This document shows, in pieces, positions 9,420 through 18,311 of a stretch of 64,000 bases of DNA (its first letter is position 1; the number at the start of each line of letters is the position of its first letter). A model generated the notes under the pieces. It saw only the letters and a list, made by a program, of their open reading frames with translations, ran no database searches and was not told the origin of the DNA. The stretch is from assembly GCA_016867265.1 (NCBI GenBank), contig VGJW01000003.1, positions 62,001-126,000 of the forward strand, written 5' to 3'. A program made the position numbers and the translations under genes. Source of the DNA: Candidatus Tanganyikabacteria bacterium. GTDB taxonomy: Bacteria; Cyanobacteriota; Sericytochromatia; S15B-MN24; VGJW01.

Positions 9420-9472
9420 GGTGTCGGCGGTTCAATGGCGAGCAGCCCCATAAGCTTTCGATGAGGACGGTC

Positions 9473-11077
9473 ATGGTGACGATTTCAGACAAGGAATTGC
9501 TGGCGTTGGGCCTCGGCGGGCTCGGACAGGTGCACGTCAACCTGTCGCGTGCCGCCTTGATCGAGGAGGCGCTCAATCGCGGCGAGGGCCGCCTTTCCGC
9601 AGGTGGTGCCCTGGTCTGCGAAACCGGCCATCACACCGGTCGCTCTCCCAACGACAAGTTCATCGTCGAGGAGCCTTCCTCGAAGGAGCGCATCTGGTGG
9701 GGCAAGGTCAACCGGCCGGTCTCCGAGGCCACGTTCGACCGCCTGCTCGGTCGCGTGCAGGCCTACATGCAGGGTCGCGAGGTCTTCGTCCAGGACTTGT
9801 TCGCCGGCGCGGATCCGCAGTTCCGCTTGCCTATCCGGGTCGTGACCCAGCACGCTTGGCACGCCGCTTTCGCGAACAACATGTTCGTGCGCCCGGTCGG
9901 CAACGAGCGCCAGGGCCTCGCGGCCGAGGCGACGGTCCTCCACGTGCCTGATTTCGAGGCCGTGCCAGAGATCGACGGCACGAACAGCGGCACCTTCATC
10001 ATGGTCCACTTCGGCCGCAGGCTCGTGCTGATCGGCGGTACGCAGTACGCCGGCGAAATCAAGAAGTCCATCTTCACGCTGATGAACTACCTGCTGCCGC
10101 AGCGGGGCGTCATGAGCATGCACGCCTCGGCCAACATCGGGACGCAGGGCGACGTGGCCGTGTTCTTCGGTCTTTCGGGGACCGGCAAGACCACGCTCTC
10201 GGCCGACCCGGACCGCAAGCTCATCGGCGATGACGAGCACGGCTGGGCCGATGGCGGCGTCTTCAACGTCGAGGGTGGCTGCTACGCCAAGGTCATCAAG
10301 CTTTCCCGGACGGCCGAACCCGAAATCTACGCGACGACGGCCATGCACGGCACGATCCTCGAGAACGTGGTGATGGACCCCCAGACCCGCGCCCTCGACC
10401 TGGACAGCGATGCGCGTACCGAGAACACCCGGGCCGCCTACCAGCTCGATGCGATCCCCAACTACGAGGCGACGGGCAAGGGTGGTCATCCCCGGACAAT
10501 CCTGATGCTGACCTGCGATGCCTTCGGCGTCATGCCGCCCCTCGCACGACTCACGCCCGAGCAGGCGATGTATCACTTCCTGGCGGGTTACACGGCCAAG
10601 GTCGCCGGCACCGAGCGGGGCGTCAAGGAGCCTTCGGCGACCTTCAGCACCTGCTTCGGCGCGCCTTTCATGTCGTTGCACCCTACGGTGTATGCCAAGC
10701 TCCTCGGTGAGAAGATCGCCCGCCACGGTACGACCTGCTACCTCGTCAATACGGGCTGGAGCGGCGGTGCGTACGGTGTCGGCAGCCGAATGAAGATTGC
10801 CCACACCCGGGCCTTGGTCCGCGCGGCGTTGTCTGGTGAACTGGACAAGACCGAGTTCGAGCAGGAAGCCGCCTTCGGTTTCCAGGTCCCCAAGGCTGTC
10901 GAGGGCGTGCCCGCCGAAGTCCTGCTACCGCGCAACACGTGGACGGACAAGGCTGCCTACGACGCCACGGCTGCCAAGCTCTCGGGCATGTTCCGCGACG
11001 CCATCGCCCAGTTCGAGGGCATGGTCGATGCGCACATTCTGGACGCTGGTCCCAAGGCCATCGCGGCGACGCACTAG
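9473..11077 (+). CDS. pckA: Phosphoenolpyruvate carboxykinase (ATP)
   Basis: Converts oxaloacetate and ATP to PEP, CO2 and ADP, the gateway of gluconeogenesis. About 534 residues, the usual family length. Diagnostic motifs are ETGHHTGRSPNDKF near the N-terminus, the oxaloacetate site region RLPIRVVTQHAWHAAF, the metal-binding Lys/His segment YAGEIKKSIFT, the P-loop GLSGTGKTTLS, IGDDEHGW and the adenine-binding GVMPPLARLTPEQAM. An ATG also exists at 9461, but only the ATG at 9473 has a spaced ribosome binding site (GAGG six bases upstream). This is the ATP-type enzyme of bacteria, plants and yeast, not the GTP-type. It stands alone with its own likely promoter. Confidence 0.96.
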   Translation: MVTISDKELLALGLGGLGQVHVNLSRAALIEEALNRGEGRLSAGGALVCETGHHTGRSPNDKFIVEEPSSKERIWWGKVNRPVSEATFDRLLGRVQAYMQGREVFVQDLFAGADPQFRLPIRVVTQHAWHAAFANNMFVRPVGNERQGLAAEATVLHVPDFEAVPEIDGTNSGTFIMVHFGRRLVLIGGTQYAGEIKKSIFTLMNYLLPQRGVMSMHASANIGTQGDVAVFFGLSGTGKTTLSADPDRKLIGDDEHGWADGGVFNVEGGCYAKVIKLSRTAEPEIYATTAMHGTILENVVMDPQTRALDLDSDARTENTRAAYQLDAIPNYEATGKGGHPRTILMLTCDAFGVMPPLARLTPEQAMYHFLAGYTAKVAGTERGVKEPSATFSTCFGAPFMSLHPTVYAKLLGEKIARHGTTCYLVNTGWSGGAYGVGSRMKIAHTRALVRAALSGELDKTEFEQEAAFGFQVPKAVEGVPAEVLLPRNTWTDKAAYDATAAKLSGMFRDAIAQFEGMVDAHILDAGPKAIAATH

Positions 11078-11087
11078 TCCGGACGAC

Positions 11088-11130
11088 GAAGCGCGGGTTG
11101 GGCCTGGTCTACAGGCGCAGCTCGCGCTTC
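11088..11130. terminator. Nested hairpin between convergent genes
   Basis: GAAGCGCG (11088-11095) pairs with CGCGCTTC (11123-11130), and inside it GCCTG (11102-11106) pairs with CAGGC (11112-11116). It lies just past the pckA stop and overlaps the 3' end of the AAA+ gene, so it could act on both transcripts. There is no T-run. Confidence 0.4.
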
Positions 11131-12803
11131 AGTCCTGTCAGGCCGGCCTGCACATCCTCCGCAGACATTGCCGCGTAACGCGGGGGCAGGTACCGGCGGC
11201 TCGAGCTTTCATAAACTGCGAGCAGCTCCATGAATCGGATCATGGCGGTGTTCCTGTTGGGGACGAACTCTCCCAATGCTTCCGCCATGCTGGCCATGGC
11301 CAGAGGCTGGCCTCCTGACCCGGCATCGTCGGCCAGTCGGGCTGCAAGCAGCAGCAGGGCCTCGATCTCGGCTGCCGAGAAGCCTTCGGTTCCCCGCGCG
11401 AGCGCAGCAGCGTCCCAGTCGTCTGCCGCCTGCAGGTGGTGTTTGCCCAGTTGCGCCTGCAGGATGCGCATCCGCTCTTCCTCCTGCCAGGGCAGGAAGA
11501 AAGGGATTTTCTCGTCAAAGCGCCCCGGGCGCTTCAGGTCGATGTCCAGTTTGTCGGGCCGATTGCTCATGACCATCCACAGCACCTTGCCGCGTTGGCT
11601 GGTGTCGCTCATGAAGGTCTTGAGCCTGGCGAAGACCCGGGAGGAAACGCCTGAATCACCGTCCTCCCCTCCCAGCGCCCGGTCGACCTCGTCCACCAGG
11701 ACCAGTACCGATCCCAGGCCTCGGATCATGCCGAGGATCTTCTCGAGATTGGCTTCCGTCGAACCGACCCAGCGATCGCGGAAATTCTTGAGTGCGAGGC
11801 AAGTGAGGCCGGAATCCCGGGCAAAGCCCTCGGCCAGCCAGGTCTTGCCGGTGCCCATCGGGCCCACGAGGAAGATGCCCATAGGCACTTCGCGGTGACG
11901 ACCTTCGTGAATGGCCCTGGCAATCCGGCCCAGACGCTCCTTGACGGCTTCCTGGCCGCCGACGGCGTCAAGGCCGTGGCTGGGCTCGATGAGTTCGACC
12001 AAACCCTGGCATTCGTGTTCGATGATTTCCTTGCGCTTGCGGGCGAGCATCGCGAGATCAAGCTGGGTCTTTCGGCCCTTTGCCCAGCGAACGATGCCCT
12101 CGAGCTGGATGCGACGCAATCCGCTTGAAAGGCGGGCGAGCTGTGCCATCGGGGCGCCAGCTGCCACTCCGTGGCGGTGCAGGGCTCTTTCCAGGAAGGC
12201 AAGGCGATCGGCCCCATCAGGCAAGGGGATCTCGATGGGGATGACCTGGGCATTTCGGACGACCCTGGGGTTGACGCTGCCCAAATGCTCGGCCACGAGC
12301 AGGATGATGTTGTGCGAGTGCAGCATCCGCGGTTCGTGGGCCCAGCGCTCGAGCGTCACCAGCGCGGCGCGATCCTCGGCCGACATGTGGGAGGGTTCTG
12401 CCGCAGGCACGATCGTTTCCACATAGTCGATGACAAGGCCGCATCGTTGGCCGGGCAGGGTCAGGAATGCCTCGAGCTGGGGGAGGACCCGGCGTGCTTC
12501 CCGCGTGCCCTCGACCAAGGGAGGCTCGCCCGTCAGGGCTTGGCGAACCTCGCCCGCGGTCCGGGCCTTGTCCCGCATGGCCGGCGTGGCGAAGGCCAGG
12601 CCCTCGGAGATGTCGTAGCGCAGCACGATGTCCTTGGCGGGCTTGAGAAGCGCCTCCTCCAGGAACGTGGCCAAGGGTACGTCCTGCCCCTCCCACGGCA
12701 CCAGATCCCGGACATTGCCGTGCAGCAGGAACTGGACTGCCTCGCCCGCGAGGTAGCGGGCCCTCAGATCCTCGGCCCATGCCGGCAGCGCAGGTGTGCT
12801 CAC
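11109..12803 (-). CDS. AAA+ ATPase of a PspA operon
   Basis: 564 residues, GTG start. Residues 1-260 form an AAA-like module without a Walker A. The C-terminal AAA+ domain (270-510) has Walker A GPMGTGKT (314-321), Walker B VLVLVDE (Asp371, Glu372), sensor I WMVMSNRP and arginine-finger-like RPGRFD (425-430). The layout resembles Cdc48/Vps4-like remodelling ATPases with one active and one degenerate ring. It is the third gene of an operon behind PspA and a membrane-anchored coiled-coil protein, overlapping the latter by four bases (GTGA). Because PspA/Vipp1 is homologous to ESCRT-III, an ATPase that remodels PspA polymers on membranes is a reasonable inference. Confidence 0.85.
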   Translation of the reverse strand: MSTPALPAWAEDLRARYLAGEAVQFLLHGNVRDLVPWEGQDVPLATFLEEALLKPAKDIVLRYDISEGLAFATPAMRDKARTAGEVRQALTGEPPLVEGTREARRVLPQLEAFLTLPGQRCGLVIDYVETIVPAAEPSHMSAEDRAALVTLERWAHEPRMLHSHNIILLVAEHLGSVNPRVVRNAQVIPIEIPLPDGADRLAFLERALHRHGVAAGAPMAQLARLSSGLRRIQLEGIVRWAKGRKTQLDLAMLARKRKEIIEHECQGLVELIEPSHGLDAVGGQEAVKERLGRIARAIHEGRHREVPMGIFLVGPMGTGKTWLAEGFARDSGLTCLALKNFRDRWVGSTEANLEKILGMIRGLGSVLVLVDEVDRALGGEDGDSGVSSRVFARLKTFMSDTSQRGKVLWMVMSNRPDKLDIDLKRPGRFDEKIPFFLPWQEEERMRILQAQLGKHHLQAADDWDAAALARGTEGFSAAEIEALLLLAARLADDAGSGGQPLAMASMAEALGEFVPNRNTAMIRFMELLAVYESSSRRYLPPRYAAMSAEDVQAGLTGLKRELRL

Positions 12804-13630
12804 GCGCGTTCGTCCTCCTGATGCCGGGAGACGGCGGGACCGTCCACGGTGCCTTCGTCCAAGGCTGTCTCGAGCGCACGCATCTCGGCCAAGGTCCGCT
12901 CGGCCACCGTAAGCCCCGAGAAGAGGGCGTCGAGATCCGTCGATCGCGACGGGTCGGCTTGCATGGCCAGGATTTGTTCGTAGGCAAGGTCCAGGGCGTC
13001 TTCCAGGACCTGGATACGTGCCCCGATGACCTGGACCTCGTCCTCGAGGCGATACAGGCGTTCCTTGCGCTTCTCGAGGATGGTGAGGTTCTCTTCGAGG
13101 GCTTCACGATGTGCGCTCGAGGCCGCCGACGCCAGATCGCGGCAGACCTGGTCGATCTCGCGACGTATCCGCTGCGGATCGTTCTGTCCCAGGTGCAGGC
13201 GTTGCCGATGCATCAAGCTGAGCAATTCGAGGTGTGCATCCTCGAGGGACTCGAGGCGTTCGAGCTCGTCCATCATCAGCGTACGGGCCCTGTTGCCCTG
13301 CAGCACCAGCAGCTCCCGAAGGGCACCGATGCGCTTGCCGAAGGCTGCTGCCTGCCGGGATATGGCGGGCGGCATGCCGTTTCGCAGGCTCGTCCGCCTG
13401 GCCTCGCGTTCCTGGTGCTCACGGGCCACGGCCTCGCGTGCCAACGTGTCCGAGACGTGCTTGCGCCAGTGGGGCAGCAGGGGAGCCAGCAGCAGCCAGA
13501 CTGTCGAACCCAATGCGGCCAGGACGAGCAACCGGAGGCCCATCCGGCCGACACCTGCGACCTGGCTCGTCAACCCGAAGAGCCCCAGCAGGCACCACCA
13601 AAGCACGTGAGGACCCGCCAGCAGCGTCAT
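12800..13630 (-). CDS. Membrane-anchored coiled-coil protein of a PspA operon
   Basis: 276 residues from the ATG at 13630. Two membrane helices lie at the N-terminus (about residues 5-25 and 30-52), followed by a long helical region to about residue 250. The heptad-like Leu/Glu/Arg pattern there (EENLTILEKRKERLYRLEDE) indicates an extended coiled coil. The C-terminal tail is acidic. It lies between PspA (31 bp upstream) and the AAA+ ATPase (four-base overlap), so the three are almost certainly one transcript. I know no name for it. It could be the membrane receptor linking PspA to the ATPase. The longer open frame upstream of 13630 overlaps PspA and is not used. Confidence 0.8.
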   Translation of the reverse strand: MTLLAGPHVLWWCLLGLFGLTSQVAGVGRMGLRLLVLAALGSTVWLLLAPLLPHWRKHVSDTLAREAVAREHQEREARRTSLRNGMPPAISRQAAAFGKRIGALRELLVLQGNRARTLMMDELERLESLEDAHLELLSLMHRQRLHLGQNDPQRIRREIDQVCRDLASAASSAHREALEENLTILEKRKERLYRLEDEVQVIGARIQVLEDALDLAYEQILAMQADPSRSTDLDALFSGLTVAERTLAEMRALETALDEGTVDGPAVSRHQEDERA

Positions 13631-13661
13631 CCGCCATCCGCCCGCCCCGAAGGCGGCGGGA

Positions 13662-14399
13662 TCAGGACTGCTCAAGGTTCTCGGAAGCTTGCCCCAGTTG
13701 CCGTTCGCTTTCGGAGGCCGGCGCCGCCATGCCCATCTGGCGCTTGTATTCCTCGAGCTTGGACTTGGCATTGGCACTGCGCATCTTGTCGTCTAGGCTG
13801 GCCATCTTGCCCGAGAGCGAGTTTTGGTTCATGTCGCGGGCAAGTTCGGCCTGGGCTTCGGTCTTGGCCACGGATTCGCGGATGCCGTCGAGCGCCTTGA
13901 GGTCCGCGTCCACGGACATCCCGGACAGTTGTTCCTGGACCTTGAGACGCGCCTTGGCACTCTCGTGACGGGCCAGGGTCTGGTTGCGCTCGGCTTTGAG
14001 CTTCTCGATTTCGGTCTTGAAGGTCTCGAGGTCCTGCTTGTGGCGCTCCGCATCGGCGACGATGCGATCGAGGTCCGCCCGCAGCCGCGTGATGCCGGCC
14101 TCGACGACTTCCTTGCGCTCGACTGCCTGCAGGGCCGTCTCCTCGTCGCCCGCCTGGATGAACTGGGGAATTCGGGCTTCGAGGGCTGCCCGTTCCGTCA
14201 GGTGGTCCTCGAGTTCCTTCTGGGTCTTGTTCTTGAGGTGCACGACGCCGCTGACGGCCTGCATCAGGTTCTGGTACTGCTTCTCGCGCGCCTGGATGGC
14301 CGCGTCGTAGACAGCGGCGGGATTGCGCGCCTCGAGTCCGCCGATGAAGAGGCCCAGGAATCCCCGGACCAGGTTGATCACCCGTTCCACCAAAGCCAT
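13662..14399 (-). CDS. pspA: PspA/Vipp1 (IM30) family membrane-remodelling protein
   Basis: 245 residues, nearly all helical. The amphipathic N-terminal helix MALVERVINLVRGFLGLFIG is followed by the family signature EARNPAAVYDAAIQ and long alpha-hairpins with Gln/Glu/Lys heptads. The length fits PspA (about 220) to Vipp1 (about 260). The start at 14399 has AAGGAAGGA upstream. PspA-family proteins polymerise on stressed cytoplasmic membranes and are structural relatives of ESCRT-III. It is first in a three-gene operon with a coiled-coil membrane protein and an AAA+ ATPase and is divergent from hisS. No PspF or PspBC genes are nearby, so regulation differs from the E. coli system. Confidence 0.92.
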   Translation of the reverse strand: MALVERVINLVRGFLGLFIGGLEARNPAAVYDAAIQAREKQYQNLMQAVSGVVHLKNKTQKELEDHLTERAALEARIPQFIQAGDEETALQAVERKEVVEAGITRLRADLDRIVADAERHKQDLETFKTEIEKLKAERNQTLARHESAKARLKVQEQLSGMSVDADLKALDGIRESVAKTEAQAELARDMNQNSLSGKMASLDDKMRSANAKSKLEEYKRQMGMAAPASESERQLGQASENLEQS

Positions 14400-17953: not shown

Positions 17954-18311
17954 TCAGGCTTCGAGCATCATGGGTTCCTCCTTGGGATTTCTTTCCAGCA
18001 ACTCGAGGCTGACCAGGCTCAGGTACCGCTTGCCCACCAACCACTCGTCCGACTGCTCGGCAAGGACCATCCCGACGAGGCGCGTCAGCGCCTGACGGTT
18101 CGGGAAGATGCCCACCACCGCACAGCGACGGCCGAGCTCACGGTTCAGGCGCTCAAGGGGATTCGTCGAGCGGATCTTCCGCCAGTGGGCCTGCGGGAAG
18201 GCCATGTAAGCGAGGATGTCCTCCTCGCCCTCGCCCAGCACCTTGCCGACAACATCGCCCAACGTCCTGATCTTCTCCGCCACCGCCTTGAACCTCCTTC
18301 TTGTGTTCGCA
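17954..18311 (-). pseudogene. IS256-family transposase, C-terminal remnant
   Basis: About 110 codons survive. The block [20 protein letters not shown] is the conserved C-terminal segment containing the Glu of the IS256/Mutator DDE triad, followed by [14 protein letters not shown]. The first two thirds of the roughly 400-residue enzyme are missing. Upstream, a good ribosome binding site (AGAAGGAGG, 18294-18302) sits only a few bases from the truncated frame, and an in-frame stop lies just before it. The original leader therefore seems to have been fused to the 3' part by an internal deletion. It cannot encode an active transposase but may be moved by a full copy elsewhere. Confidence 0.8.

Follow-up and report, generated by a model that had tools for sequence, protein, structure and literature searches.

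A divergent PspA and a p97/Cdc48-like tandem AAA+ ATPase in Sericytochromatia: a candidate ESCRT-III-like module in bacteria

The pspA operon and its host genome

Three genes lie head to tail on the minus strand of the window (the whole stretch of 64,000 nucleotides that was analysed) in the order pspA, mid and AAA+, and a recheck of the open reading frames confirmed both the positions and the operon order proposed in an earlier note on this DNA. The first gene, pspA (13662..14399, 245 aa), ends 31 nt before the ATG of mid (12800..13630, 276 aa), and the stop codon of mid and the GTG start of the AAA+ ATPase gene (11109..12803, 564 aa) share the previously described 4-nt overlap (12800-12803). 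Upstream of pspA lies the divergently oriented hisS, while a pckA-like gene (9461-11077) converges on the AAA+ gene from the opposite side. Elsewhere in the window, a 109-aa fragment (17954-18283, minus strand) represents the C-terminal part of a Mutator/IS256-type transposase (PF00872).

The host genome, 98.2% complete, belongs to Sericytochromatia, a non-photosynthetic sister lineage of cyanobacteria, and pspA is single-copy in a genome-wide search. Its product scores 62.1 bits against PF04012 (cut-off 33.9), which upholds its identity as a PspA/IM30 family protein, and membership of PspA in the ESCRT-III superfamily is well established. Although superfamily and phylum (Cyanobacteriota) are shared with Vipp1/IM30 and cyanobacterial PspA, the full-length proteins of that group mostly reach about 140-230 bits to PF04012, far above the values of about 62-64 bits found here. 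The protein clusters with PspAs linked to the AAA+ gene and was placed with them in a divergent, AAA-associated subfamily. With the classical Psp system (PspFABC) the operon has PspA in common, but PspB and PspC are missing from the entire genome, as had been claimed, and identical searches recover both in E. coli. No PspF-like gene was found among the called open reading frames adjoining the operon, and the AAA+ protein itself is not a sigma54 activator.

The tandem ATPase and the middle protein

The Pfam match of the AAA+ protein to PF00004 is confined to residues 310-435. In a fold search, its structure model (pLDDT 84.7, pTM 0.78) could be aligned along its whole length to D1-D2 of p97/Cdc48, over about 550-600 columns, and the N-terminal half is therefore a second AAA module. 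The C-terminal module D2 (residues ~275-564; 11109..11981, minus strand) contains Walker A (GPMGTGKT, 314-321), the pore loop (WVG, 345-347), Walker B (DE, 371-372), sensor-1 N414 and the Arg fingers R425/R428. Walker A (GPMGTGK), Walker B, the sensor-1 asparagine and both Arg fingers are retained in 82/82 homologs, and the pore-loop tryptophan in 78/82. In D1 (residues ~1-274; 11982..12803, minus strand) the Walker A lysine is lost throughout the same 82 homologs and a conserved F-x-x-H-G-N-x-x-D (F-L-L-H-G-N-x-x-D) motif replaces the P-loop. This agrees with the earlier description of one active and one degenerate module.

An identity as Vps4 was rejected, as scans of Pfam and NCBIfam found no MIT domain in the protein, its N-terminal half has an AAA fold that makes it a tandem, and the CDC48 profile outscores CdvC (91.3 versus 54.9 bits). 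The ATPase is thus a p97/Cdc48-like tandem and not a Vps4. With p97/Cdc48/VAT it shares the full-length D1-D2 fold and type II tandem organisation, but its D1 is devoid of Walker A and there is no space for an N-domain ahead of D1. A second AAA+ protein of 621 aa is encoded in the same genome (L046:4424-6289, minus strand; G000:C2 about 100423-102288). It is 37% identical, also has a QFLLHxNxxD motif, and adjoins genes for a TerC-CBS membrane protein and a PEP carboxylase.

The middle protein matches no family in Pfam or NCBIfam. In its model (mean pLDDT 82.8), a helical hairpin (7-24/30-51) leads into long helices that extend to residue 258, consistent with the twin-helix, coiled-coil protein that had been predicted, and a basic segment after TM2 suggests that the coiled coil is cytoplasmic. 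Homologs occur in at least four groups (Sericytochromatia, Myxococcota, Lysobacterales and Armatimonadetes), and mid is a real family of TM-anchored coiled-coil proteins. Besides Sericytochromatia, several Myxococcota and Lysobacterales have it together with the AAA+ gene. The earlier note had suggested that it may be a receptor; an obligate receptor role was not supported, given that several genomes with PspA and AAA+ lack it (G007 and the majority of deltaproteobacterial genomes with unlinked genes) and that it is linked to ABC transporter genes elsewhere.

Distribution of the ATPase and of a PspA C-terminal tail

Scanning GTDB species genomes for the AAA+ protein returned 80 loci in three settings, with gene calls in the high-GC loci being based on codon usage and approximate. 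The first setting is the pspA-mid-AAA order of Sericytochromatia; G007 has pspA-AAA without mid, and locus L061 of Armatimonadetes likewise has pspA-AAA. The operon was found in both the family and the order of the window: it recurs in G001 and G002 of the same family and in G008, while in G004 it is divided between two contigs, and it is therefore not a product of chance. In one further member of Sericytochromatia, G017, the PspA is split into two frames (L156/L160; G017:C8:5729-6353) although its AAA+ is intact, reflecting either sequencing error or decay. The second setting is a large set labelled mostly 'Deltaproteobacteria', where the AAA+ gene often adjoins rpmA/obgE and pspA is located elsewhere. 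Loci of this delta type are also found in MAG records (L064, L065, L082, L102) whose titles name Klebsiella pneumoniae or Bifidobacterium breve and which appear to be mislabelled. In the third setting, Myxococcota and Lysobacterales, pspA-AAA is partly joined by genes for a PBP-OmpA protein, a permease, an ABC ATPase and mid. A TerB-family gene stands directly 3' of the AAA+ gene in 19 loci of this type (L113:6924-7367, L118:7145-7594, for instance), a linkage of Ter stress genes to PspA.

A PspA match was obtained in 26 of the 27 AAA-bearing genomes searched (25 above the cut-off), and the copy is nearly always divergent (62-87 bits), even where a separate canonical PspA exists. Within the sample of the window's own phylum, the divergent adjacent PspA was seen only together with the AAA+ gene, and no close AAA+ homolog was found in the photosynthetic genomes sampled. 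Co-occurrence was then counted in 141 genomes of a Myxococcota-level phylum (that of G218, a Myxococcales MAG), with a score of 235 bits or more against A4, the profile of AAA-linked PspAs, defining the subfamily. All 30 subfamily PspAs fell in AAA-bearing genomes, 30/34 AAA genomes had one and 0/107 AAA-less genomes did, counts that come from related genomes and hence do not represent independent trials. The four AAA genomes without one comprise G213, with a strong AAA+ hit, and three with weaker hits. In about 20 of the 30 genomes the two genes are on different contigs. The genes thus co-occur in other genomes both linked and unlinked, and this supports the AAA+ protein as a genuine partner of PspA and answers the refuting condition of the earlier note that co-occurrence be lacking.

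The PspAs linked to the AAA+ gene end in a conserved [KR][TSQN][LIM]-COOH, preceded by a linker that varies in length and sequence (alignment A4). This tail is present in 63/65 distinct subfamily PspAs versus 1/67 other PspAs, against a chance expectation from composition of about 0.4%. The pattern was defined on the PspAs of AAA loci, where 23/25 distinct sequences have it, and was tested on the further subfamily PspAs outside that set, most of them unlinked (40/40), and on two controls: canonical PspA/Vipp1 (1/51, a chance match) and a related class from AAA-less genomes (0/16). One of the two exceptions is the window PspA itself, whose C-terminus (...ENLEQS; 13662..13676, minus strand) is degenerate at the site of the tail; the other is L109 (...QRTMG). 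Changes in the window ATPase that might compensate for the lost tail were sought, and it departs from its homologs at 6 conserved columns only, none of them telling.

In a quick tree the window PspA has a long branch (0.9), and the best topology nests AAA-less PspAs within the AAA clade. A tree that holds the AAA-bearing PspAs as one clade fits equally well (AU p=0.56), and correlated losses of tail and AAA+ were consequently dropped as independent replicates. Judging from these trees the AAA-bearing PspAs may be one clade, in which case a single origin could account for both tail and ATPase, with no independent replicate. As one clade is possible, the tail pattern is one of conservation and co-retention and not of repeated independent association; likewise, with a possible single origin the co-distribution supports the mechanism proposed below without proving it. 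The closely related PspA class of AAA-less Myxococcota-level genomes (L238-L253) is tailless and sits on an exceptionally long stem, as though constraint had been lifted.

A putative unfoldase for PspA polymers

Members of the PspA family polymerise on the inner membrane, and in ESCRT systems Vps4 reads the MIM tails of ESCRT-III. We lean, with some reservation, towards a bacterial remodelling system akin to ESCRT-III and equipped with a dedicated unfoldase, in which the tandem AAA+ protein would pull PspA from its polymer by the C-terminus. The basis for this is the content and linkage of the genes, their co-occurrence at genome level, the conserved active site, the full-length fold match to p97/Cdc48, which threads its substrates, and the distribution of the tail, from which we infer a physical interaction, a threading direction, disassembly and a role for the middle protein. 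A PspA polymer would form on the inner membrane and the tandem AAA+ would assemble as a hexamer, with the catalytically dead first ring probably serving in docking or substrate recognition and the second ring presumably hydrolysing ATP and threading the polypeptide. By analogy with the MIM tail of ESCRT-III, the [KR][TSQN][LIM] tail would be the handle: the hexamer would grip this extreme C-terminus and extract subunits, and their extraction would permit turnover or constriction of the polymer. For the two-TM coiled-coil protein, the most likely role is that of a membrane anchor or scaffold for the complex. In the window lineage, where the tail is degenerate, contact with the ATPase may be made through another surface or may be weakened. 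Counting against the mechanism are the tailless, long-branched window PspA itself, the possible single origin of tail and ATPase, the delta-type loci, where the AAA+ gene adjoins rpmA/obgE and not pspA, and the AAA genomes that have no subfamily PspA (G213 and the three with weaker hits).

Compared with ESCRT-III/Vps4 (CdvB/CdvC), the system would likewise pair a polymer-forming protein of the ESCRT-III superfamily, putatively marked by a short signal at its C-terminus, with an AAA+ protein that has a WVG threading pore loop. It differs in the absence of MIT, in a tandem AAA nearer to Cdc48 than to CdvC and in a membrane-anchored third protein; the tail of the PspA subfamily occupies just the last 3-4 residues. 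The reading of the earlier note is partly supported: the partnership of the AAA+ protein and PspA holds up, and the ATPase is not of the Vps4 type. More tentatively, and at slightly less than even chances in our estimate, bacteria could have evolved their own ESCRT-III/unfoldase pair, in which the handle of the PspA subfamily is read by a half-dead, Cdc48-type tandem AAA+: a functional equivalent of MIM-MIT/Vps4 with unrelated recognition parts.

Alternatively, the AAA+ protein could mainly serve a transporter and middle-protein module, or Ter-type stress genes, with PspA recruited as a membrane-stress accessory and not as the substrate of disassembly. Such a role would fit the occurrence of mid in a PBP-OmpA/permease/ABC operon away from the AAA+ gene (G205, G206, G215, G201), the Myxococcota and Lysobacterales in which that same operon is joined to pspA and AAA+, the TerB-family genes that follow the AAA+ gene, and the TerC neighbour of the related AAA+ in the window genome. 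We nevertheless regard it as unlikely, since neither the window genome and its relatives nor most of the delta genomes with unlinked genes yielded the operon, while the AAA-PspA pair persists there, and since the conserved tail is on PspA. For the window system the transporter was rejected as a component, as the PBP-OmpA protein is absent from the genome, with an OmpA-domain match only. Within the transporter operon, a protein of ~287 aa without a Pfam match repeatedly adjoins mid (L202:6477-7340; within L118 3359-4270).

The tail itself could have a meaning unrelated to the AAA+ protein, as a quality-control degron (for FtsH or ClpXP, for example) or as a membrane or regulator contact, its co-distribution with the ATPase arising from shared ancestry only. 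Hydrophobic C-terminal tails are typically degrons, and the fit of a single clade leaves no independent replicate to speak against common descent. Yet FtsH and ClpXP are common among genomes whose PspA has no tail, whereas the tail follows the AAA+ protein across several phyla, also when unlinked, and is missing from the 'intermediate' PspAs, close relatives that occur in AAA-less genomes. These points render such a meaning of the tail doubtful.

Less probable still, though compatible with the unfoldase mechanism except for the role of mid, is the middle protein as a membrane-anchored, Snf7-like ESCRT-III subunit in a two-component polymer with PspA: passages of PMC11237479 mention 'Snf7 homologs with a TM segment' in PspA/AAA/ABC/PBPB-OmpA operons that resemble those of Myxococcota here, and the mid profile has weak matches to Snf7 chains (E about 0.1), but none of 16 mid members has a Pfam Snf7/PspA match at E<=1, the mid and PspA profiles compare at 1.2% probability, and no PDB fold matches at E<=0.001, the weak best matches being BAR domains.

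Association of PspA with an AAA+ protein, to which the earlier note had also referred, is already published. In the parts of their paper considered here, Ravi et al. (2024, mSystems, PMC11237479) describe PspA with a two-AAA protein whose N-terminal copy is inactive and propose a Snf7/Vps4-like role. The gene pair and the architecture of the ATPase are as in the window operon, and the long operons they report, which include an ABC ATPase, a permease and PBPB-OmpA, correspond to those of Myxococcota and Lysobacterales, but these main-text passages include neither the PspA tail, nor co-occurrence of unlinked genes, nor the compact pspA-mid-AAA operon of Sericytochromatia. A description of the tail was likewise not found in the literature searched, the main texts of mostly open-access papers. 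New here are the conserved C-terminal tail of PspA and the co-occurrence of the unlinked genes.

A dedicated disassembly ATPase for bacterial ESCRT-III proteins has been named as an open question (PMC8281802), chaperones or PspF have only been suggested for this task (PMC11746142), and ESCRT systems that include a Vps4 are regarded as exclusive to archaea and eukaryotes (PMC11188069). The locus is also present in a named cultured strain, Tahibacter aquaticus DSM 21667 (L118). Together, the conserved tail and the unlinked co-occurrence make the mechanism proposed here, a Cdc48-type unfoldase that would act on PspA, specific and easily testable.
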